This document shows, piece after piece, positions 1,203 through 32,214 of a DNA stretch of 43,546 bases. Origin of the DNA: Spirochaetota bacterium. Its GTDB lineage: Bacteria > Spirochaetota > JAHITG01 > JAFGFC01. The stretch is taken from positions 1 through 43,546 of the forward strand of contig JAFGFC010000013.1 of the NCBI GenBank assembly GCA_016931325.1. Direction: 5' to 3'. The notes below the pieces were generated by a model. That model searched no databases and had not been told where the DNA came from. It saw nothing but the letters and a program-made list of their open reading frames with translations. Position 1 is the first letter of the stretch; each line of letters starts with the position of its first letter. The position numbers and the translations under genes were made by a program.

Positions 1203-4200
1203 TCATTTGCTTTTTACAAGAGGAAAGTGGAACCTTAAATAGATATTATCCCTGTCCACTGTGGGATGCTGAAGATCATGACTGAACCGGCTTACCGCAT
1301 GAGAGACATAATCCCGTATCTCATCGATGGACAGTATATTGTCATTATTTATATCACCAATATCACTGGTCAGACATCTTATGATCTCTTCTGTAAAAAG
1401 ACCATTTTGCAGCTCATCACTTTCAAAGGATAGTTCCTGACCCCTGGAAGAAGAAAAAACAATGGCACCGGACCTTCGAACAAGGTCATTATAGATAAAC
1501 CGGTCTTTCTGTATCGAATACCCCTGTGATGTTTTTTTCAATGAGCCCAAGGCTATCGAACGGGCCTGTAAACCCCGGCTCCCGGCGCGGGTATAGTATA
1601 TTTTTTGCATGTCGTCTTCCATCTCACCCGATTCACAGGTATCCATAAGGAAGAGCTTGTTACGAGGGGTAATGTTATACAACAGGTCTTCAATAAAATC
1701 AAATCGGGCTCCTTTTGCAAGGTTGCTCAGGGTCGTATCATAGGTAATATAGTAATAGCTGCGAGTGATATCCCTGTCATAAACGCCGTGACCGGCAATG
1801 AAGAGAACGAGTGTATCATCCACCTGAGCGTTATCAAGAAAAGATCTTGCCTTTTTAATATTATCACAGGTCACGTCACTGTTGGTGAACGCTTTGACAT
1901 AAATATTCTTAAAATAGGGTTTCATTTTTAAAAAGATATGAGCCAGGTCCATCACATCCTTATGGGCGTATCGGAGATTTAAAAAAGGATCCTGATAGTG
2001 AGAGGCGCCGAAACCCAGAAAATAAAGACTGTTCTTCTCTTTTTTATCATACTGGGCAAAGGTCAAAGCCCTGAATGATTCGGCTCCTTTCACGTTGATG
2101 CATGAGACCTCGATCTTGTTCTTTCCGTTTGACAGTTCAAAGGTTTCTGAAAGATCGTTCTTTTTCCCCTTTGTTCTTTTCCCGAAAAGCCCGTACAGGG
2201 GGACATCATTGATAAAAATATTATAATTATTGAGATCATATTGACTGTCTTCCAGTTTGAATTCAAGCGTTATGAGTTTTCCTTTCTGTTTTGTATTGAT
2301 GATCCTGGCCCGAGGGATATGTAATTGGCTCAAGAGATTCTTTTCCTGCAACCCCATTTTATTCAGCCTTTTCTTGTAACGGTTATAGAAATGAAAGATC
2401 AATTTTTTATCATGAAAACCTATGGTTTCCAGCAGAATATCCGGGCGATTAAATTTAACGGCAAACTGATCAATGCTGAAAGCCTCCATCCCTTTGACCA
2501 TGGCGATAAGATCTCCACCCCTGGTGGAACAGTCAAAATAACCTTCCTGGTTATAAACGACCCATTCCCGGCCACTGGATAGAAAAATAATATGACGACC
2601 AGTTGAGATGTTCCAGAGCCTGACGGTTGTGTCTTCACTTCCGCTGCACAGATACCGGCCGTCAGGTGAAAAATCAATGGAATTGACCCTGTCAAAATGG
2701 CCCGTGAAGGTCTTTATCAGTTCTCCGTTAATACGGAAGAGTTTAATCACATTCCCGCTTGTAAAAGCGATATAATGACTGTCTGGCGAAAAGCATATTT
2801 TGCCTATGACAAAGACAAAATCAGTTTTAAAAGAGCGGATCAGATTCCCTTTCCTGTCCCACAATTTAACCGTGTTATCATTGCCACCTGTAGCAAAATA
2901 TTTTCCATCAGGGGAGAAGGTGATGTCGTAGATGATGCCATATTTCCCGTGAGCCTGAAAAGCCTTTTTAAGACCACCTTCTTTGTTCCATAATCTTATT
3001 TCTCTGTCATAACCGGCGCTTACAATATATTCTCCCAATGGATCAAAGCAGACATTAGCAATACCGGCTTGATGACCCCTGTAGACTTTGATCAATCTGG
3101 CGTTAATATCCCACAGCTTGATGCTATGGTCATTTCCACCGGTCAAAATATATTGCCCATCATCCGAGATCTTAAGACAGGTGAAATTTTTTTGATCAGG
3201 GACATCAATGATCCTTTCTCCTTCCCTGTTAAATAAAATAAGATGTTCTCCGACAGCGGCAATATATTTCCCATCAGGAGAAAAAGCCATCTGTTTGATG
3301 AAATTTGTATTATCCTCTATCGCATTATCCAATTTTCCATTCACATTCCAGAGATCGATCGTTCTGTTCCAGCCGCCGCATACGATATATTTCCCGTCAG
3401 GTGAAAAGCTGACACTATGTATGCCTTCCCTTTTTCTTTTCCTGATATCAATGGATTTAACCAGGTGGCCTTTCCTATCCCAGATCCTGATGGCGCGATG
3501 TGTCGGAGAATCATCACCCATGGTGATCAGGTGCCGGCCATCATGAGAGAAACTGGCATTGAAAGCAATATCCTCATAGGCTTTAAAGGAAAGGACAAGC
3601 GAGCCGTCAACCGTATAGAGCATAACATGATTCTGACTTATTCCCATGAGGTATTGGCTGTCTTTTGAGAACCGGATGATCCAGATCGATCGTTCTGTAG
3701 GTATGGTCCTTACGAGTTCGCCTTTCCTGTCCCAGACTTTGATCAATTTGCCCCCTGTTTCTGTTACCAGTCTGGGTTTGAGATTGGAAAAGATCAACGT
3801 TCCCGGCATATGTTCCCTTTCACTGGAGGCGATATACTTTCCATCCGGTGAGAAAGCCAGGGAAGTGATAACACCGGTATGCGCCTGGATCTTTTTCAAA
3901 CTGTCTTCTTCAATATCATAGAGACCTATCGTGTTATCGCTGGCATAGATGAAAGCCCGCGTCATGCCGCCGCCGCTGGGTACGGCCAACTGCTTATTAT
4001 CCGGTGAAACAGCGATCTCTCTGACAAAGTAGTAAGGATTCTGAAACGCGGTCTCATCAATGATTATTTTTTTCAAAAGTTTACCTTGAAGGTCCCATTT
4101 CTTGATACTGCGGCTGGCCGTAAAGATATATTTCCCGTCGAAGGAAAAGAGAACGCGCGTTACTTTGTTATTATCATACGCTTTAAAGGTCCTTATGAGA

Positions 4201-4547
4201 TCCCCATAAACATTCCACAGTTTTACCTGGCCGTTCAACCCCCCGCAGGCTATTGTTCTGCCATCAGGAGAGATATCAAGGGATTGGACACGCTCTTTCA
4301 TTTCCAGTGTACGGATCAGTTTTCCGTCAAGCGACCAGATTTTGACAGTATTATCATAACTCCCTGTGACAATAAATTTATTGTTAAAAGCGAATTTCGT
4401 GGAAATGATCCAATCGTTGTGACCGTTCTGGATCACGCATTTAAAAGGATAGTCCTTGCCTTCCTGCGCCTCCGTATGAACAGACTGAATAGAAAAGACA
4501 ACAAACGGCAGGATAAAAACAATGATGCAAGTGATTCTTTTTCTCAT
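1203..4547 (-). CDS. exported WD40-repeat caspase-family protease with EF-hand-like tail
   Basis: 1114 residues. A Sec signal peptide (about residues 1-27) is followed by about 14 WD40-type repeats, most containing FSPDGKY or a variant and a closing LWD/IWD, enough for two seven-bladed propellers. A linker with the REWVVYNQEGYFDCS pattern typical of bacterial WD40-caspase proteins leads into an Ig-like stretch. The C14 caspase/metacaspase domain has both catalytic residues: His in FIAGHGV (about 919) and Cys in MDTCESGE (about 970). Near residue 1070 lies an EF-hand-like loop (DINNDNILSIDEI), which may bind calcium as in metacaspases. An AAAGGA site precedes the ATG. Predicted periplasmic or surface; the substrate is unknown. 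It is divergent from the lipoprotein gene at 4695. Confidence 0.9.
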   Translation of the reverse strand: MRKRITCIIVFILPFVVFSIQSVHTEAQEGKDYPFKCVIQNGHNDWIISTKFAFNNKFIVTGSYDNTVKIWSLDGKLIRTLEMKERVQSLDISPDGRTIACGGLNGQVKLWNVYGDLIRTFKAYDNNKVTRVLFSFDGKYIFTASRSIKKWDLQGKLLKKIIIDETAFQNPYYFVREIAVSPDNKQLAVPSGGGMTRAFIYASDNTIGLYDIEEDSLKKIQAHTGVITSLAFSPDGKYIASSEREHMPGTLIFSNLKPRLVTETGGKLIKVWDRKGELVRTIPTERSIWIIRFSKDSQYLMGISQNHVMLYTVDGSLVLSFKAYEDIAFNASFSHDGRHLITMGDDSPTHRAIRIWDRKGHLVKSIDIRKRKREGIHSVSFSPDGKYIVCGGWNRTIDLWNVNGKLDNAIEDNTNFIKQMAFSPDGKYIAAVGEHLILFNREGERIIDVPDQKNFTCLKISDDGQYILTGGNDHSIKLWDINARLIKVYRGHQAGIANVCFDPLGEYIVSAGYDREIRLWNKEGGLKKAFQAHGKYGIIYDITFSPDGKYFATGGNDNTVKLWDRKGNLIRSFKTDFVFVIGKICFSPDSHYIAFTSGNVIKLFRINGELIKTFTGHFDRVNSIDFSPDGRYLCSGSEDTTVRLWNISTGRHIIFLSSGREWVVYNQEGYFDCSTRGGDLIAMVKGMEAFSIDQFAVKFNRPDILLETIGFHDKKLIFHFYNRYKKRLNKMGLQEKNLLSQLHIPRARIINTKQKGKLITLEFKLEDSQYDLNNYNIFINDVPLYGLFGKRTKGKKNDLSETFELSNGKNKIEVSCINVKGAESFRALTFAQYDKKEKNSLYFLGFGASHYQDPFLNLRYAHKDVMDLAHIFLKMKPYFKNIYVKAFTNSDVTCDNIKKARSFLDNAQVDDTLVLFIAGHGVYDRDITRSYYYITYDTTLSNLAKGARFDFIEDLLYNITPRNKLFLMDTCESGEMEDDMQKIYYTRAGSRGLQARSIALGSLKKTSQGYSIQKDRFIYNDLVRRSGAIVFSSSRGQELSFESDELQNGLFTEEIIRCLTSDIGDINNDNILSIDEIRDYVSHAVSRFSHDLQHPTVDRDNIYLRFHFPLVKSK

Positions 4548-5606: not shown

Positions 5607-5957
5607 ATGAGTGAAGAGCAGCACGCAGAAAAACGCAAGTACATTCGACTTCCCGGTGATTTTCCGGTATGGTACCAGACGATTCAGGAAGATGATATCT
5701 CTTTCGGTAAACCTCCTTCAAAGAATATCAGCGCAGGGGGTATATGCCTTCAAATGGAGGAAGGGGAGCCTGTAGGAACACGTATCCATCTCAAATTCAA
5801 TATTCCGGGATATGAGAAAAAGATTGAAGCCAAGGGAAAAGTGGTATGGATGAAAAGAGTGGAAACAGGCAAGTTTGAACTGGGCATTGAATTTTATGAA
5901 ATAAACCAGGAAGATATGGATGCTATCAATCAGCTGGCCAAAAGCATGGATTTATAG
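5607..5957 (+). CDS. single-domain PilZ protein
   Basis: 116 residues, almost entirely one PilZ domain. Both c-di-GMP-contacting motifs are intact: RKYIR (RxxxR) near residue 12 and NISAGGI (N/DxSxxG) near residue 42, followed by the usual beta strands (VVWMKR, FELGIEFYEI). It should be a cytoplasmic c-di-GMP receptor with no attached output domain, so it would act by binding a partner. AGAGGT precedes the ATG. Its 3' end overlaps the end of the converging MBL-cNMP gene by 6 bases. Confidence 0.92.
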   Translation: MSEEQHAEKRKYIRLPGDFPVWYQTIQEDDISFGKPPSKNISAGGICLQMEEGEPVGTRIHLKFNIPGYEKKIEAKGKVVWMKRVETGKFELGIEFYEINQEDMDAINQLAKSMDL

Positions 5958-8387
5958 TCTTTCTTTCGTGATCCTGTGATACATATTTTTTATCATTTCC
6001 AATCCCATGGCAATACCGGGATATTCTGAAACGATCTGCTGAAATATATCTTTTTCAATACTGATAATGTCAGCATAATCCGATTTGACGATTACATCGG
6101 CTGTTCTTTTTGTTTTTTCGATCAAGGCGATTTCACCAAAGGGATCACCGGAGCCTATCTCATTGATCAATTTTTCCCTGCCGTCTTTATCACGGGCTAT
6201 GATATCCAGAACGCCGTACTTTGTGATATGAAATTTATCACCTATTTCACCATGGCGGATGATATAGTCGCCTTTTTTATATCGTTTCTGTACAAATAGG
6301 GAAGAAAGGGCATTGATCTCCCGTTCTTTTAACATTTTAAAGAAGGAGATTTTCGAAAGCAAAGGCCGGTTGTCAACGATATTCTGGAATACATCCAGGA
6401 TCTGGTCTTTGTATTGATCGAATTTATTTTCTGATAAAGATAATAGTTCGACATTGGTCCTGGCGTAGGCCGTCGCATTTCGGGTTTTATTTTTATTAAA
6501 GAAAGCCATCTCTCCGAAATAGTCCCCTTTCCCCAGATATATCTTTCTGCCGTCAGGGATCTGGATCTCCACTTCACCCGTGTGGATGATATAGAATTTT
6601 CTGGCTGTATCACCCATGCTGAGAATGACCTGTCCTTCCATGAATTGTTCTTTTTTTGATCCTTCCATGATCTCCAGTTTCTGTTCCTGAGTTAATTTCC
6701 TGAAAAGCGGAACATCGTCCAGCTGCTTGGCCAGCCTTCTATATTGTTCAACCTGATCGGTTTTGACAAAAATGATCTCCTCGCCTTTTTGGGCCTGGTG
6801 TATAGGGGTGCCTTCAGGTAATTCATGTGTATGGATAGCGATGATCTTTTTTTGCGTCTCTTCCGGTAATTGTAAAAGATTTTTTACATCCGTGTGGATA
6901 CCTCCGCCGGCATCATGGATAATGCAGTCACTCTCCCATATAAAATGAAGAATGGAATCAGCCCTTTTTCTGGACAGCTTTCGCTCGCTGACGAGTTGTT
7001 CAATATAATTCGGGTTATAATTTGTATCCCCTGAATAAGCGATCGATCTTTTAATCCCTTTTTCTTTATCAATATAGGTCACTATAAATTGAAGTGTGGG
7101 AATGGCATGAAACGCATAATCTATCTGTATCCTGGTTTTTGCGTTCAAAAAGAATTCCTTGCCCAATTTTAATTCTTTAAACTGGATCATTTTCTCGATC
7201 TGTTTTTCCTCCCATCCCGTAATGGCTTTGACCTTTTTTAAAAAGCAGTTAAAAATGATCCGGGAGGTCAATACGGTAATGACCCGTCCGCTCAGTATCT
7301 GTTCCAGGATGCCGTCGTCATGATCGGAATGAACATGGGTCAATAAGATATACTTTATATCATCGCGGTTGATCCTTTTCCGGTCGAGATACTGGGGAAG
7401 ATTCGTCAGAGGATCGACCACCATCCCGGTTCCCTCCCCAATCCAGATAATAAAGCTGGATGTCAGCCGCTCCGGATCAAATCCAGTACTGGGATCAAAA
7501 AAATAAACCCCGAACTCGGCCTCTTTACCGGGTTCCTGAAGGCTGAATGATTCATCGATATCAATGGGTTCCCATTCTGTGAGATCGATATACCCCAGTT
7601 TTTTATTATTTTCCTTGATAACAAAATATTCAAGATCTTTTTTGGCGGTTATTTCAACACCCTTGATCTGGATCCTGTTATCCTTGAATACGTGGATTTC
7701 AATATAATCAGCAAGAACCGCAGGTCTTGTACGACCGTCTTTTCCCTTTATCGGGACGGAGAAAAGTTTCAACTCATTATAGAATTCCATGGCTCTTTTC
7801 TCTTCCCAGCCGGAGGCTTTAAACTGCTCCAGAGTCGGGCCAAATATCTCCTCGGAAGCAATGGTTTGAACTCTCTGTTCAAGATCTTTATTCATACACA
7901 GGAAGGTGGTTTTCTGACCCCTATGGAGGAAAAAATTTTCAAAAACAGGAAAGGCAATGTCAATATAATTGATGCCATTATAGAATGTCGTGGGGGTTAT
8001 CACATAATACTGGGCGGCAGGTTGTTTATTCCTGGCAGCGGCTTTAACGGTATGAGGAGGTACCCTGAACTGGATCATCCCGCAGGATTTTGTGTTGATC
8101 CGAAGGCTATTCGGTTCTATCTTGAAAATAGGCTGTCTGGACATACGGAATGTATCTTTCTCTTCTGCGGTACACTGGATATTAAAATCCAGGCCAATGT
8201 TTCTCAGCCACATATCCAGCTCAAAATCTTTAAAAGGAGAGTCTGATTTCAGGATAGAATCAAGGTTCTTTATGGCGGCTTCTGAGAGAGACCGATTGTT
8301 TATTATTTTTTCCTGGATAACAGGCAAAACATCGGCATCGATCTTTATGTTTTTTATTGATTCTATGTATCGAAGAAAATCGTCCAT
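5952..8387 (-). CDS. metallo-beta-lactamase-fold protein with two C-terminal cyclic-nucleotide-binding domains
   Basis: 811 residues, no signal peptide, so cytoplasmic. The first 300 or so residues are of unknown fold. An MBL-fold hydrolase follows with HVHSDH (HxHxDH, about 349-354), an Asp in YSGDTNYN and a late His in IHTHELPEG, so the dinuclear metal site looks complete. Two cNMP-binding domains follow (about 560-670 and 680-800), with phosphate-binding cassettes YFGEMAFFNKNKTRNATAY and PFGEIALIEKTKRTADVI, both retaining the Glu and Arg that hold cAMP or cGMP. The likely role is a hydrolase, of unknown substrate, gated by cyclic nucleotide. It is divergent from an adenylate cyclase. There is no SD site before the ATG, and the promoter places the transcript start about 3 bases upstream. 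Confidence 0.92.
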   Translation of the reverse strand: MDDFLRYIESIKNIKIDADVLPVIQEKIINNRSLSEAAIKNLDSILKSDSPFKDFELDMWLRNIGLDFNIQCTAEEKDTFRMSRQPIFKIEPNSLRINTKSCGMIQFRVPPHTVKAAARNKQPAAQYYVITPTTFYNGINYIDIAFPVFENFFLHRGQKTTFLCMNKDLEQRVQTIASEEIFGPTLEQFKASGWEEKRAMEFYNELKLFSVPIKGKDGRTRPAVLADYIEIHVFKDNRIQIKGVEITAKKDLEYFVIKENNKKLGYIDLTEWEPIDIDESFSLQEPGKEAEFGVYFFDPSTGFDPERLTSSFIIWIGEGTGMVVDPLTNLPQYLDRKRINRDDIKYILLTHVHSDHDDGILEQILSGRVITVLTSRIIFNCFLKKVKAITGWEEKQIEKMIQFKELKLGKEFFLNAKTRIQIDYAFHAIPTLQFIVTYIDKEKGIKRSIAYSGDTNYNPNYIEQLVSERKLSRKRADSILHFIWESDCIIHDAGGGIHTDVKNLLQLPEETQKKIIAIHTHELPEGTPIHQAQKGEEIIFVKTDQVEQYRRLAKQLDDVPLFRKLTQEQKLEIMEGSKKEQFMEGQVILSMGDTARKFYIIHTGEVEIQIPDGRKIYLGKGDYFGEMAFFNKNKTRNATAYARTNVELLSLSENKFDQYKDQILDVFQNIVDNRPLLSKISFFKMLKEREINALSSLFVQKRYKKGDYIIRHGEIGDKFHITKYGVLDIIARDKDGREKLINEIGSGDPFGEIALIEKTKRTADVIVKSDYADIISIEKDIFQQIVSEYPGIAMGLEMIKNMYHRITKERL

Positions 8388-8396
8388 GGTTTATTA

Positions 8397-8424
8397 ATAT
8401 TACCCTGTCAGCCGAAAAAGTCAA
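8397..8424 (-). promoter_or_regulatory. promoter of the MBL-cNMP gene, leaderless type
   Basis: Minus strand: TTGACT, 16 bp, TAATAT. The -10 box ends 9 bases before the ATG, so the expected transcript start is almost at the start codon. Confidence 0.68.
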
Positions 8425-8433
8425 GATTTTCCT

Positions 8434-8461
8434 TTGACTTGAAATATTATACATGTATATT
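8434..8461 (+). promoter_or_regulatory. promoter of the adenylate cyclase gene
   Basis: TTGACT, 16 bp, TATATT. Its -35 box is 9 bp from the -35 box of the divergent promoter. Confidence 0.7.
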
Positions 8462-8517
8462 TTCTTATATCCATCCAACCCGTAAGAATCTTACAAATCT
8501 TAACACAGGAGTGTGGT

Positions 8518-10071
8518 ATGAAGGAGTTCAAAAAGAAGCATAATGAAAATGGACCCTCGCAATTAAAACGCAAAGAACTGGAATTGGCATCTGTCTGCCG
8601 TATTGATGATATCAGGGACGCGACAACTGATATGAGATATTTTTTTCAATTACTGGTACGTGAATTAAAAAAGATATTTCAATGTAAAACCGGGGCTTTG
8701 TTCTACAAAGATGAGATCACAAAAAAGATCGAGATCAGTGTTATCTCTTCTCAAAAGAAAGTAGATACCAAAGCCCTGGAGAAAGTAGCCTGGCAGTCCA
8801 TGCTTAAAAAGAAGATGATCAAAAATCCCGGGGTCAGGGGATTAGGTCATTCGATCTGCCTCCCGGTGGTCTTCCATAACCGTTCCAACGGGTCCATTAT
8901 TTTAGGGGACAGAAAAAAAGGATTTACCGGGGAAGACATTTCCCTTCTGGAACTGCTAGAGTCACAGATCGATTCCGCTCTGGAGCACAAGATCGTTATC
9001 CGGAGATTGGAACAGAGGAATAACGAACTGACGGTACTTTACCGTATTGACAGGATAAGGGACACCATCGGAAATTTTGAAATCATGCTGAATCAGATCC
9101 TTACGGAGATATTAAAGGTGGTGCCGGCCAGGACCGGGTTTATCATGGTCTATAATGAAAGGAAGAAACGACTGGAATTAAAAGCGGTCAATCGCCTGAA
9201 AGTGAATCGGTCGTTTTTAAAAATAATAGCCCAGGAAGCCATTGATCAGGCTGAACTTGTGAAAACTGATAAATATATTACTCTGCCTCTGCTTTTGAAG
9301 AACAGGGTTATCGGCGTCTTTGGTGTGATAGACAGTCCTAAGGGAAAATTTGATATCTATGACGAAAGACTGTTGCGTGCCATCGGTTCACAGGCGGATA
9401 CGGCTATCTTTGAGGATCTTTCCAGGCAGAAAATAAAGGATATCTTCAAGCGGTATGTGGCTGAAGATGTTGTTGAAAAGATGCTGAAGGAAGACAAGGA
9501 TTTTCTGAAAGGATCAAAGGAGAATCTCTCCGTTCTGTTTTGTGATATGCGGGGTTTTACTTCGATGTCGGAAAAGATAGGCGATCCTGAAAAGCTTGTC
9601 ATTATCATTAATGAGTATCTGGGGACGATGGCTTCCGCCGTGTTGAACAATAAGGGGACACTGGACAAGTTTGTGGGAGATGAAGTGATGGCGATCTTTG
9701 GGGCTCCCATGCCCAACAGGGATCATGCCCGTATAGCGGTACAGACAGCCATCGATATGCAAAAGGCCATGAAGAGTTTGAATAAAAAGTGGGCGAAAGA
9801 AAAAAAGCCCACCAACAGCGTTGGTATAGGGATCAATTCGGGGGATATGATCGTGGGGAACATCGGGTGTGAGATCATGACAGACTATACGGTTATGGGA
9901 GATAAGGTTAATCTGGCTTCAAGACTCTGCGGTGCGGCGGCGCCGGGCCAGATACTTGTAACGGAATATACGTTTAAAAAAAGCAACAAATATTTCAGGT
10001 TCAAAAAACTGAGCCCCATTAAAGTAAAAGGCAAATCCAGGCCGGTCGACATTTATGAAGTCTGTTATTGA
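8518..10071 (+). CDS. GAF-GAF class III adenylate cyclase
   Basis: 517 residues, soluble. Two GAF-like sensor domains (about 25-160 and 165-300) each begin with a similar SVCRIDDIRD / VLYRIDRIRD segment, a sign of internal duplication. A class III nucleotide cyclase domain follows (about 330-517). Metal-binding Asp residues are in FCDMRGFT and KFVGDEVM. The purine-selecting positions are Lys (LDKFVGDE) and Asp (TDYTVMGD), the adenylate rather than guanylate pattern. The transition-state Asn and Arg are in VNLASRL. It should make cAMP in response to a small ligand bound by the GAF domains. A good AGGAG precedes the ATG. The divergent neighbour carries two cNMP-binding domains. Confidence 0.93.
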   Translation: MKEFKKKHNENGPSQLKRKELELASVCRIDDIRDATTDMRYFFQLLVRELKKIFQCKTGALFYKDEITKKIEISVISSQKKVDTKALEKVAWQSMLKKKMIKNPGVRGLGHSICLPVVFHNRSNGSIILGDRKKGFTGEDISLLELLESQIDSALEHKIVIRRLEQRNNELTVLYRIDRIRDTIGNFEIMLNQILTEILKVVPARTGFIMVYNERKKRLELKAVNRLKVNRSFLKIIAQEAIDQAELVKTDKYITLPLLLKNRVIGVFGVIDSPKGKFDIYDERLLRAIGSQADTAIFEDLSRQKIKDIFKRYVAEDVVEKMLKEDKDFLKGSKENLSVLFCDMRGFTSMSEKIGDPEKLVIIINEYLGTMASAVLNNKGTLDKFVGDEVMAIFGAPMPNRDHARIAVQTAIDMQKAMKSLNKKWAKEKKPTNSVGIGINSGDMIVGNIGCEIMTDYTVMGDKVNLASRLCGAAAPGQILVTEYTFKKSNKYFRFKKLSPIKVKGKSRPVDIYEVCY

Positions 10072-28882: not shown

Positions 28883-29314
28883 TCATTTTTTCTTTGAACT
28901 GCTTTTTTCCATCCGTTCAAGGTAATTTTCAAAGGCTTTTTTGCCTTCTTCTTTCCAGTAATTTTCATAATACTTCCAGTTCCTGTAATCTCCCCCGGGT
29001 GCCCACACCTCTTTCGGTCCTGTTCCTTTTTTCCATCTGTCATGAGCCTGATAAATATGGTCATGCTGGTCATGAAACCTCCCGAATCCTCCGAAAATGA
29101 GTTTGCCCAGAATGACAATACCAAAGGCCTGCCAGTATGTAATGGTTCCCAGGCCGAAGAGGGTTGGCATGAGCCAGTTCCAGAGCAGCTTGACAAAGTA
29201 TCCGAACAAAAGCCCAAATACACCGGCCAGGATCACACCTCCGATGGCTATTCCAATAATACGGAACACCTTGATATAGGCTCTTGGATGGCAATGATTG
29301 TTTGCACCACACAT
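28883..29314 (-). CDS. membrane protein paired with an ECF sigma factor
   Basis: 143 residues. A Cys/His-rich start (MCGANNHCH) precedes two membrane spans (IIGIAIGGVILAGVFGLLFGYFVKLLW and a second near YWQAFGIVILGKLIFGGFG), then a hydrophilic tail with His and charged residues. The central motif LWNWLMPTLFGLGTITYWQAFG is shared with small membrane proteins I remember next to sigma-factor genes in other phyla. The ribosome site GGAGGT lies inside the last codons of the sigma gene, and the two genes are 4 bases apart, so they are translated together. It could act as an anti-sigma factor, but no known anti-sigma domain is visible. Confidence 0.72.
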   Translation of the reverse strand: MCGANNHCHPRAYIKVFRIIGIAIGGVILAGVFGLLFGYFVKLLWNWLMPTLFGLGTITYWQAFGIVILGKLIFGGFGRFHDQHDHIYQAHDRWKKGTGPKEVWAPGGDYRNWKYYENYWKEEGKKAFENYLERMEKSSSKKK

Positions 29315-29318
29315 AATC

Positions 29319-29876
29319 TTATACCTCCATCAATAGATTTTTATTATTCAAAAGCGCTTTTTGAATCTTTTTCAAGGCCCGGGATTTCCGGGATAGCAGA
29401 GTCCCCAGGGGGATGTTCCATTCTGCAGACATTTCCTGAAACGAACGGTTTTCAAATTCAGTGGCAATGATAATCGCTTTCTCTTCCTTTTCCAGGGAAT
29501 CGATGGCTTTATAGAGATAACGGCAGATCTCTTTGGTTTCCCATTCTTTCTCAATATTGATCCGGGGATCTTGAAGAACGTCTTTAAGGGTTTGATGGCT
29601 GTTTTTTGAAACAGCTTGGTCTAAAGAGATCACGTTCTTCTTTTTTCTGAAAAGGTCAACGATCTTATTTTTTAATGATTGATAGATATAGGAGGCCAGA
29701 TTTTCAATGGGAAGGGTGATGTCAGCCGTATCAAAAATTCCTGCCATGACGTCCTGCACCACGTCCTCGGCATCCCTCGAGGCTTCATCATCGATCCTCT
29801 TTCTTACAAAACCTACCAGTTTATGATATTCCCTGATAAAAAAAAGTCCTATGGTTTCCTTGCTTTTGTCACGCAT
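29319..29876 (-). CDS. ECF-type RNA polymerase sigma factor
   Basis: 185 residues with the sigma70 region 2 pattern (RDAEDVVQDVMAGIFD, NLASYIYQSLKNKIVDLFRKKK) and a region 4 helix-turn-helix (SLEKEEKAIIIATEFENRSFQEMSAEWNIPLGTLLSRKSRALKKI). It should direct RNA polymerase to a small regulon. No SD site precedes the ATG. A weak TTGGAT, 17 bp, TAAAAT pair on the minus strand (29897-29925) could be its promoter. The partner membrane gene follows immediately. Confidence 0.9.
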   Translation of the reverse strand: MRDKSKETIGLFFIREYHKLVGFVRKRIDDEASRDAEDVVQDVMAGIFDTADITLPIENLASYIYQSLKNKIVDLFRKKKNVISLDQAVSKNSHQTLKDVLQDPRINIEKEWETKEICRYLYKAIDSLEKEEKAIIIATEFENRSFQEMSAEWNIPLGTLLSRKSRALKKIQKALLNNKNLLMEV

Positions 29877-29962: not shown

Positions 29963-31033
29963 TCAATCTTTTTTAAACAGTTTCTTATATTTCCCGTACC
30001 CTTCTTTTTCCAGATCTTCTTTCGATATAAAACGCAGGGCTGCCGAATTGATGCAATACCTCAATCCGGTCGGCTGGGGGCCGTCATTGAACTTATGGCC
30101 CAGATGAGAATCCCCGTTTTTGCTTCTCACCTCTATTCTTTCCATCAAGAGGCTTTTATCTTTTTTCTCAATAATATTGTCCTTTTCCAGGGGCTTGGTG
30201 AAACTGGGCCAGCCTGTCCCTGAATCGAACTTATCAAAAGAGGCAAACAGAGGCTCTCCGGAGACGACATCCACATAGATCCCTTCCTTTTTATTATTCC
30301 AGAATTGGTTGTCAAATGGTTTTTCGGTCGCTTTTTCCTGTGTTACTTTGTACTGAAGAGGTGTCAAACATGTTTTTAATTCTTTTTCTGAAGGTTTTTT
30401 AAAGTTTTTATCATCTTTTGTCCCGGAAATTTTCATTTTATCACCCCGGCTCTTTTCCAGGAATTCGTCACGCCCGGAATTTATACGATAAATATTATAT
30501 TTTAAGGGACATTTTTTATAATAGTTTTGATGATATTCTTCAGCCTTATAGAACTCACCGGCCTTGATTATCTTTGTTGCGATCTTGCTTTTAAATAGGC
30601 CTGACCGTTCTAGTTCTTTTTTTGAGCTCCGGGCCTGTTCTTTCTGTTTCTCATTGTGATAAAATATAGCGGTCTTGTATCGCTCGCCTCGATCAACGAA
30701 CTGTCCGCCGGAGTCTGTCGGGTCTATCATTTTCCAGAAATGGGATAAAAGTTCCTTATAACTGATGATAGAAGGATCAAAGATAACCTGAACCGCTTCC
30801 AGATGGCCAGTCTTGCCGGAAGAGACACTGTCATAAGTCGGGTTTTTTTCCATGCCGCCGGTATATCCTGATGTGACCTTTGCCACACCTTTGATCTTTT
30901 CAAAATCAGACTCCACACACCAGAAGCAACCTCCGGCAAATGTGGCTTTTTCAAGTTTTTTTGAAGCACCGCTCACGCTCATCGTCAATCCCGCCAATAG
31001 CCATAGCAATAGAACAAAATACATTTTATCCAT
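29963..31033 (-). CDS. msrAB: exported methionine sulfoxide reductase MsrA-MsrB fusion
   Basis: 356 residues from the ATG at 31033, which has AGGAGG upstream; the track adds 21 codons that overlap the promoter. A signal peptide ([17 protein letters not shown]) is followed by MsrA with catalytic GGCFWC near residue 37, then MsrB (about 215-350) with GTGWPSF, the His residues of GDSHLGHKF and the catalytic Cys in RYCINS. MsrB lacks the zinc-binding Cys pairs ([10 protein letters not shown] instead of CxxC), the zinc-free form common in fused enzymes. It repairs both isomers of oxidised Met in exported proteins. Confidence 0.93.
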
Positions 31034-31068
31034 TATGTGCCCTCCTGTTAAAATATCATAACAATAGT

Positions 31069-31096
31069 GATATAATAACAGAAAATGATTTGTCAA
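31069..31096 (-). promoter_or_regulatory. promoter of the msrAB gene
   Basis: Minus strand: TTGACA, 16 bp, TATATC. Confidence 0.65.
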
Positions 31097-31233: not shown

Positions 31234-32214
31234 TTATTTCGTGTAGACCTGTTTTTTCAGGATATGAACATATTTTTTAAAGACCTTTTCAGCCCGGGCA
31301 ATATCCCCTTGCCGGTAATAGGCTCTGATAAGCATACGGTATCCCATAAGGGAATCAGGATATTTTTTTATCAGATCGTTCAGAAGGAGGATGGCCTGAT
31401 CATATTTCTTCTCATCCAGGGCCTGCTTGCCTTTTTTATATAATTGTTCAAAAAGGATCAGCTCCGAGCGGGTATCATAGTTCCATTCCTTGTATATCTC
31501 CTGCAGCATGAATTCGGAATTTTTAAGGTGGATCTGATTTTTATCAACGATGTCCTTTAATTTTTTTATCATATAATTCTGTTCAGAGATCAAAGACTGG
31601 TTCTTGTCGACCTGAGTTTTTATGGTATCCCTTTTTTTAATCAGCTGCTCGATCTGGTTGACAAGATCATGACGGGCGGCTTCGGATATGATCAGTTTTT
31701 TTTTCACCTTTTCTTTTGTCTGATAGGATCCCAGACCCCACAGGCCTGTCAGGAAAAGTCCAAGGATTAAAATAATAAGGCTGGCTTTGAAAAAAAATTT
31801 CTTTCGGATCTGCCTTAAAGAATAAGAGAGTATATCGATCTTGTCATTATTGATGATCTTGAAGAAACTGACTCCTATCCGATAATGCAATCGATCGATC
31901 TTTCTGAACCATTGTATTTTTCCTGTAAATTCGATCAGATCCCGTTTCCCGGGTATGTCTATTTTTAATTGAAGAAACTGCTTTAATTTCAGCAGCTTTT
32001 GCTGAAGAGCCAGAGGGGCTTCAATGATATCAATGGCAATTCCCCCTGATGAGATATTCAGTGTATGGGATTGATAAAAATCAAAAGTGTCTTTCCGGAA
32101 TTCGGAGAAAGAATAAAGCACAGGTATAGCCGCAGGTAATCTCATATATTTTCTGGCCTCACCCTTTGCGGCCTGAACCTTTAAATAATGTTCCCATTTA
32201 AGAAACTGAAACAT
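31234..32214 (-). CDS. PilZ domain, membrane span, coiled coil and TPR protein
   Basis: 326 residues. PilZ domain (about 20-130) with RKYMR (RxxxR) and NISSGGI, both c-di-GMP motifs intact. A single membrane span (SLIILILGLFLTGLWGLGSY, about 147-166) divides it from a coiled coil (about 170-240) and TPR-like helices (YDQAILLLNDLIKKYPDSLMGYRMLIRAYYRQGD). The PilZ part should be cytoplasmic and the TPR part periplasmic, so it could pass a c-di-GMP signal across the inner membrane. No ribosome site precedes the ATG; the promoter implies a transcript starting at or one base before it. Confidence 0.88.
   Translation of the reverse strand: MFQFLKWEHYLKVQAAKGEARKYMRLPAAIPVLYSFSEFRKDTFDFYQSHTLNISSGGIAIDIIEAPLALQQKLLKLKQFLQLKIDIPGKRDLIEFTGKIQWFRKIDRLHYRIGVSFFKIINNDKIDILSYSLRQIRKKFFFKASLIILILGLFLTGLWGLGSYQTKEKVKKKLIISEAARHDLVNQIEQLIKKRDTIKTQVDKNQSLISEQNYMIKKLKDIVDKNQIHLKNSEFMLQEIYKEWNYDTRSELILFEQLYKKGKQALDEKKYDQAILLLNDLIKKYPDSLMGYRMLIRAYYRQGDIARAEKVFKKYVHILKKQVYTK

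Follow-up and report, generated by a model that had tools for sequence, protein, structure and literature searches.

The gene at 5952–8387 of the DNA analysed here (the window, a stretch of 43 546 nucleotides from a Spirochaetota bacterium) probably encodes a soluble class II, metallo-beta-lactamase (MBL)-type cyclic nucleotide (cNMP) phosphodiesterase, which would be controlled by its own cyclic nucleotide-binding (CNB) domains, would contain an internal pseudo-dimer and would act in negative feedback, with a cyclase next to it that is not dedicated to it. The architecture is a known one, represented here by an unusual subfamily with a plausible new structural detail. This gene and the divergent cyclase gene are both real, with exactly the ends given to them in the first-pass annotation. 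The features of the MBL-CNB-CNB gene are as follows.

5952–8387, (−) strand: gene for the MBL-CNB-CNB protein, 811 aa, ATG start; proposed cNMP-stimulated cNMP phosphodiesterase
8184–8387, (−) strand: N-terminal helical extension, residues 1–68; gaps in the alignment, helices in the models
7563–8180, (−) strand: predicted degenerate MBL-fold domain without HxHxDH, residues ~70–275; conserved in the family, assigned from the model and fold matches
6753–7520, (−) strand: active-type MBL domain, residues ~290–545; Pfam, Apyc1 profile matches, conservation
7340–7311, (−) strand: HxHxDH of the MBL domain
7115–7095, (−) strand: segment with MBL residue H427
7034–7017, (−) strand: segment with MBL residue D454
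6905–6888, (−) strand: segment with MBL residue H498
6842–6822, (−) strand: segment with MBL residue H519
6372–6752, (−) strand: CNB-A domain, residues ~546–672; Pfam, conservation
6521–6468, (−) strand: CNB-A phosphate cassette, FGEMAFFNKNKTRNATA, intact
5988–6368, (−) strand: CNB-B domain, residues ~674–800; Pfam, conservation
6143–6093, (−) strand: CNB-B phosphate cassette, FGEIALIEKTKRTAD, intact here and degenerate in the wider family

The joining of a complete HxHxDH MBL fold to two intact CNB domains in one protein, as first described, is borne out by the Pfam matches (cNMP_binding in two copies at 138 bits, cut-off 27.5, with E 1e-40; Lactamase_B at 36.9 bits, cut-off 22.7) and by the presence of the expected residues. 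Pfam and the structural model agree on the domain order, with the MBL domain followed by the two CNB domains. The model of the whole protein is of good quality (mean pLDDT 84.9, pTM 0.82), no membrane segment is apparent, and the protein is the only full-length one of its kind in the source genome.

The metal site of the MBL domain is complete (H351, H353, D355, H356, H427, D454 and H519). These seven ligands, together with H498, are invariant across the alignment of 41 homologues, and the seven are kept in 93 of 93 non-redundant homologues. When an MBL-domain profile built from ten diverse family members was searched against the PDB, the three structures of Apyc1 (7t28, 7u2r and 7u2s; PMC9117128) ranked first, with E-values of 2.8e-12, 3.9e-8 and 7.3e-8, the next match having 3.9e-5. 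The alignment to 7u2r covers nearly the whole MBL domain, including the segment HTxxxLxxLPxEIQxxIxxxH, and in the alignments to 7u2r and 7u2s the HxHxDH motif and the further ligands match their Apyc1 counterparts. The cut-off of the Apyc1 Pfam family PF23023 (50 bits) was missed, with 17.5 bits for the whole protein and 21.5 bits for the MBL domain. With Apyc1 as the best solved match, the substrate, to which the first-pass annotation had assigned no identity, is most likely a 3',5'-cyclic mononucleotide, judging from these sequence comparisons.

Both CNB cassettes contain the Glu and Arg residues (FGEMAFFNKNKTRNATA in CNB-A, FGEIALIEKTKRTAD in CNB-B) and appear by sequence to be binding-competent; they are of different types, R-N-A in CNB-A and R-T-A in CNB-B, and the tandem is like the regulatory tandems of PKA and PKG in sequence and fold. 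The CNB-A cassette is intact in 92 of the 93 non-redundant homologues. The exception is a Desulfobacterales protein (L163), the sole homologue in which the cassette Arg of CNB-A is gone as well (FGEKCIFSDAPKTATA), with its metal site intact. In the same set, an intact CNB-B cassette is confined to three proteins, that of the window and its two close relatives from the same order, so that two intact nucleotide-binding domains are a property of the window protein and not a rule of the family. Taken with the metal ligands, the near-universal CNB-A cassette indicates that metal and cNMP sites are retained together across the family. Because the window protein has two intact sites with different cassettes, the enzyme could be under the joint control of two different cyclic nucleotides; that its subfamily is a dual-input device of this kind, in which both nucleotides act on one phosphodiesterase partnered by an internal dead MBL domain, is a tentative proposal that we consider unlikely.

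The first 300 residues, which had been left without an assignment, now have a likely one. The N-terminal 288 residues modelled alone fold confidently (pLDDT 88.3, pTM 0.84), and the best 16 matches of this model in a Foldseek search of the PDB are all MBL-fold proteins, among them PqqB, Apyc1, ELAC1, RNase Z, ELAC2, PhnP and relatives. The first six have probabilities of 0.98–1.00, only one E-value is below 0.001, and the TM-scores are low (0.26–0.36 by query length, at most 0.42 by target length). Sequence searches with this domain found no Pfam family and no solved PDB relative, hhalign comparison of its profile with that of the active MBL domain found no sequence similarity, and a viral fold library gave no match at E ≤ 0.001. 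Residues ~70–275 are therefore predicted, from the model and its fold matches, to be a degenerate, metal-less MBL half. The combination of a dead N-terminal half with an active MBL domain suggests, at the level of predicted fold, an internal pseudo-dimer, i.e. a one-chain version of the dimer of Apyc1 or RNase Z. The helical extension that precedes it (residues 1–68) is limited, as shown by alignment gaps, to the window subfamily and the homologues L040 and L041.

The invariant zinc site and the near-invariant CNB-A cassette argue for a cNMP-regulated enzyme, and the architecture of Dictyostelium GbpA/GbpB, together with the cNMP phosphodiesterase activity of those characterised catalytic domains that come closest, makes self-limiting cNMP clearance the simplest model. 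When cAMP (or cGMP) rises, CNB-A would bind the nucleotide, and in the window subfamily CNB-B probably would as well; the nucleotide-bound CNB domains would release or raise the activity of the zinc site, which would hydrolyse the cNMP to the 5'-NMP and so close a negative feedback loop. The degenerate N-terminal MBL domain would pair with the active one within the chain, in a dimer-like manner as in Apyc1 and RNase Z. Any cellular cyclase could supply the nucleotide, the GAF-GAF neighbour being one of seven. We infer stimulation, as opposed to inhibition, by analogy with the Dictyostelium enzymes.

MBL-CNB-CNB homologues were found in 96 of the 296 sampled Spirochaetota genomes. The family is mainly one of Spirochaetota, other labels among the named records being Syntrophaceae, Smithella, Desulfobacterales, Labilithrix, Hydrogenedentota and Cloacimonetes; phage records gave no match, and plasmid records gave partial matches, chiefly to the CNB domains and none with 80% coverage. 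In a midpoint-rooted FastTree phylogeny built with no outgroup, the window protein, its two order relatives and L040/L041 form a deep, separate subfamily, and one relative (G012) carries both subfamilies. The gated-phosphodiesterase design is most likely frequent among spirochaetes and allied groups. The number of class III cyclases per Spirochaetota genome ranges from 4 to 71 (25 genomes), and a putative feedback-controlled MBL phosphodiesterase present in about a third of the sampled genomes is a good candidate for the removal of cAMP and cGMP. Some spirochaete genomes contain proteins annotated as 'cAMP/cGMP-dependent 3',5'-cyclic-AMP/GMP phosphodiesterase'. In the open literature, outside which most subscription journals lie, we found no study of, or biochemical datum for, a bacterial member.

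The divergent neighbour and the DNA between the two genes have the following features.

8388–8517, no strand: intergenic region with back-to-back promoters, 130 bp
8424–8397, (−) strand: promoter of the MBL gene, -35/-10, TTGACT-16-TAATAT
8434–8461, (+) strand: promoter of the cyclase gene, -35/-10, TTGACT-16-TATATT; consensus match only
8518–10071, (+) strand: gene for a GAF-GAF-class III adenylate cyclase, 517 aa, ATG start; Pfam, residues
9514–10041, (+) strand: class III cyclase catalytic domain with the adenine-type pair K384/T458; Pfam, alignment

The neighbour is a complete GAF-GAF adenylate cyclase, as had been proposed. Its Pfam domains are above cut-off (Guanylate_cyc, PF00211, 93.8 bits against 21.9; GAF_2 twice, 57.5 bits against 28.6), and all class III residues are present, namely the two metal-binding Asp (D343, D388), the Lys/Thr pair (K384, T458) and the Asn and Arg (N465, R469) of the transition state, with roles assigned from the alignment to Pseudomonas aeruginosa CyaB (3r5g) and general knowledge of the family. 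The full NKFDE motif is not evident by eye in either GAF domain. The best Spirochaetota matches cover the catalytic domain only (residues about 277/299–515, 45–48% identity); the GAF half had no homologue at E ≤ 1e-55 in the 296 Spirochaetota genomes, and hence no full-length homologue was found there. A foreign origin of the gene was considered and rejected, its GC3 of 0.523 being the highest among the 20 genes compared by a small margin only. It is one of seven class III cyclases in the source genome.

The 130-base gap with back-to-back promoters holds as well, with support from conservation for the MBL side alone: the 8-mer TTGACTTT at the MBL-side -35 box is invariant in both close relatives, in otherwise poorly conserved flanking DNA. 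With 9 bp between them, the two -35 boxes make up an inverted repeat of 7 bp. Because the MBL promoter lies a few bases from the ATG, the mRNA may be almost leaderless. A perfect 12-bp palindrome, TATACATGTATA (8448–8459), present as a single copy in the window, extends into the -10 region of the cyclase promoter. As a 17-mer it has just two relatives genome-wide, each with two mismatches, and it was rejected as an operator because it is missing upstream of the MBL genes of both relatives.

The divergent pair is not conserved. Among 92 other non-redundant homologues of the MBL-CNB-CNB protein, 63 have at least 3 kb of sequence on both sides, and none of these 63 neighbourhoods has an adjacent cyclase. 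The two homologues with 62% identity, related at the level of the order, have different upstream genes and no cyclase nearby. A cyclase lies within 3 kb in 4 of the 63 neighbourhoods, against roughly 1.6–2 expected from cyclase density by our own estimate (394 cyclases in about 91 Mb), which is no clear enrichment of cyclases near the MBL gene. At four loci (L121, L131, L043 and L074; two of Syntrophaceae type, two from Spirochaetota) the MBL-CNB-CNB gene is followed, after roughly 2–3 kb, by a class III cyclase gene on the other strand; cyclase and MBL-CNB-CNB protein are possibly in loose association in some lineages. The cyclase in the window is an accidental local neighbour and no conserved or dedicated partner. 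Of the hydrolase switched by cAMP made next door, as envisaged in the first-pass annotation, what stands is the anatomy of cNMP control beside a cAMP maker; the arrangement as the mark of a system fails the annotation's own test of adjacency, and the GAF half of the cyclase has no homologue at the cut-off applied to the 296 genomes.

Gene order around the MBL gene has been reshuffled between relatives, as is indicated by a sigma-factor-like gene with a small partner (3360–4381) which at locus L038 is directly upstream of the MBL gene, and whose counterpart in the window (28883–29876; orthology judged by eye) is 20 kb from it. Other genes in the window include, at the window's edge, one for a GGDEF protein with a partial GAF domain (98–859, (+)) and two PilZ genes (5607–5957, (+), and 31234–32214, (−)), of cyclic-di-GMP type like the GGDEF gene; the first PilZ gene and the 3' end of the MBL gene overlap tail to tail by 6 bases. 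The gene at 1203–4547 (−) encodes a secreted-looking protein of 1114 aa, with confirmed WD40 repeats and a C-terminal part that by eye is like a caspase/C14 peptidase (GHGVYD ... DTCESG), and the gene at 29963–31096 (−) encodes, by eye from the translation, an MsrA-MsrB fusion-like methionine sulfoxide reductase.

The MBL fold is also found in nucleases and in hydrolases acting on other substrates. If the MBL domain were an RNase Z-like nuclease, processing tRNA or other RNA and gated by cAMP through the CNB domains, this would agree with the presence of an SGDT motif, with weaker hits, by profile or by fold, to RNase Z, ELAC1/ELAC2, RNase J and Integrator 11, and with the combination of an inactive and an active MBL half, which is the layout of ELAC2. 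However, Apyc1 is a far better match than any nuclease (E 2.8e-12 vs 3.6e-4), and the window protein scores 23.1 bits with the NCBIfam RNase Z model, whose cut-off is 292.95, so that we regard a nuclease as improbable.

We see about as little prospect for the original model in the form of a new, dedicated hydrolase that acts on something other than a cyclic nucleotide and is supplied with cAMP by the cyclase next door. The two genes are indeed adjacent and divergent, with back-to-back promoters, but this adjacency is absent from all 63 other neighbourhoods and likewise from both closest relatives, the genome has seven cyclases, and the cyclase is without a full-length homologue in 296 genomes in which the MBL protein is widespread. 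The same layout of a cyclase beside a cNMP-binding protein recalls Pycsar-like phage defence, with a cyclase that answers infection and the MBL protein as toxic effector, and in PADLOC the cyclase domain is hit by PycC models (E 7.5e-20), the CNB domains by PycTIR effector models (E 4.7e-22). What these models recognise, however, are the cyclase and CNB folds as such; a TIR or membrane effector domain is missing, the K/T pair of the cyclase is of the ATP type, the MBL gene occurs widely in Spirochaetota and is unlinked to cyclases, and no known type of defence gene is among the neighbours examined; phage defence is therefore very improbable. A CNB-controlled cNMP phosphodiesterase remains our preferred reading.

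In its GAF-GAF sensory part and its class III catalytic residues, the window cyclase is like the cyanobacterial cyclases of CyaB1/CyaB2 type, and its catalytic domain also resembles that of P. aeruginosa CyaB; it differs from the CyaB1/CyaB2 type in that its GAF half is without a homologue in the sampled genomes. The long form of RNase Z, ELAC2, combines a degenerate N-terminal MBL half and an active half in one chain, a two-half layout that the window protein shares by predicted fold; unlike the window protein, it is a tRNA 3' endonuclease without CNB domains.

For the active MBL domain, the nearest characterised relative is Apyc1, a homodimeric phosphodiesterase with broad activity on 3',5'-cyclic mononucleotides, whose relatives in Bacillus subtilis prefer cAMP and cGMP (PMC9117128). 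Apyc1 and B. subtilis YhfI have in common with the window domain the HxHxDH motif, the further His/Asp/His ligands and the HTxxxLxxLPxEIQ segment, but they are short, single-domain homodimers of phages and bacteria without CNB domains, and the window domain is below the Pfam Apyc1 cut-off. The atypical class II phosphodiesterases of Rv1339 type, modelled on YhfI, are bacterial MBL-fold cAMP enzymes, as is proposed for the window protein; the parts of their description consulted here do not mention CNB domains (PMC9293780).

The closest parallel for the whole protein is provided by GbpA and GbpB of Dictyostelium, class IIb MBL phosphodiesterases whose activity is raised by cNMP bound at two downstream CNB domains (PMC11988041). 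An MBL domain followed by two CNB domains had therefore already been described, and 'undescribed', the word of the first-pass annotation, does not hold for the architecture; the likeness is one of domain order, taken from the published description. GbpA and GbpB are cytosolic (PMC11988041), and the window protein likewise has no apparent membrane segment. They are, however, eukaryotic proteins with measured activity and measured activation by cNMP, whereas the window protein is known from its sequence, and in most bacterial homologues the CNB-B cassette has been lost. If our reading is correct, the window protein would be a bacterial counterpart of GbpA/GbpB, a simple soluble protein in which their mechanism, possibly with a dead MBL half as one element, could be studied.
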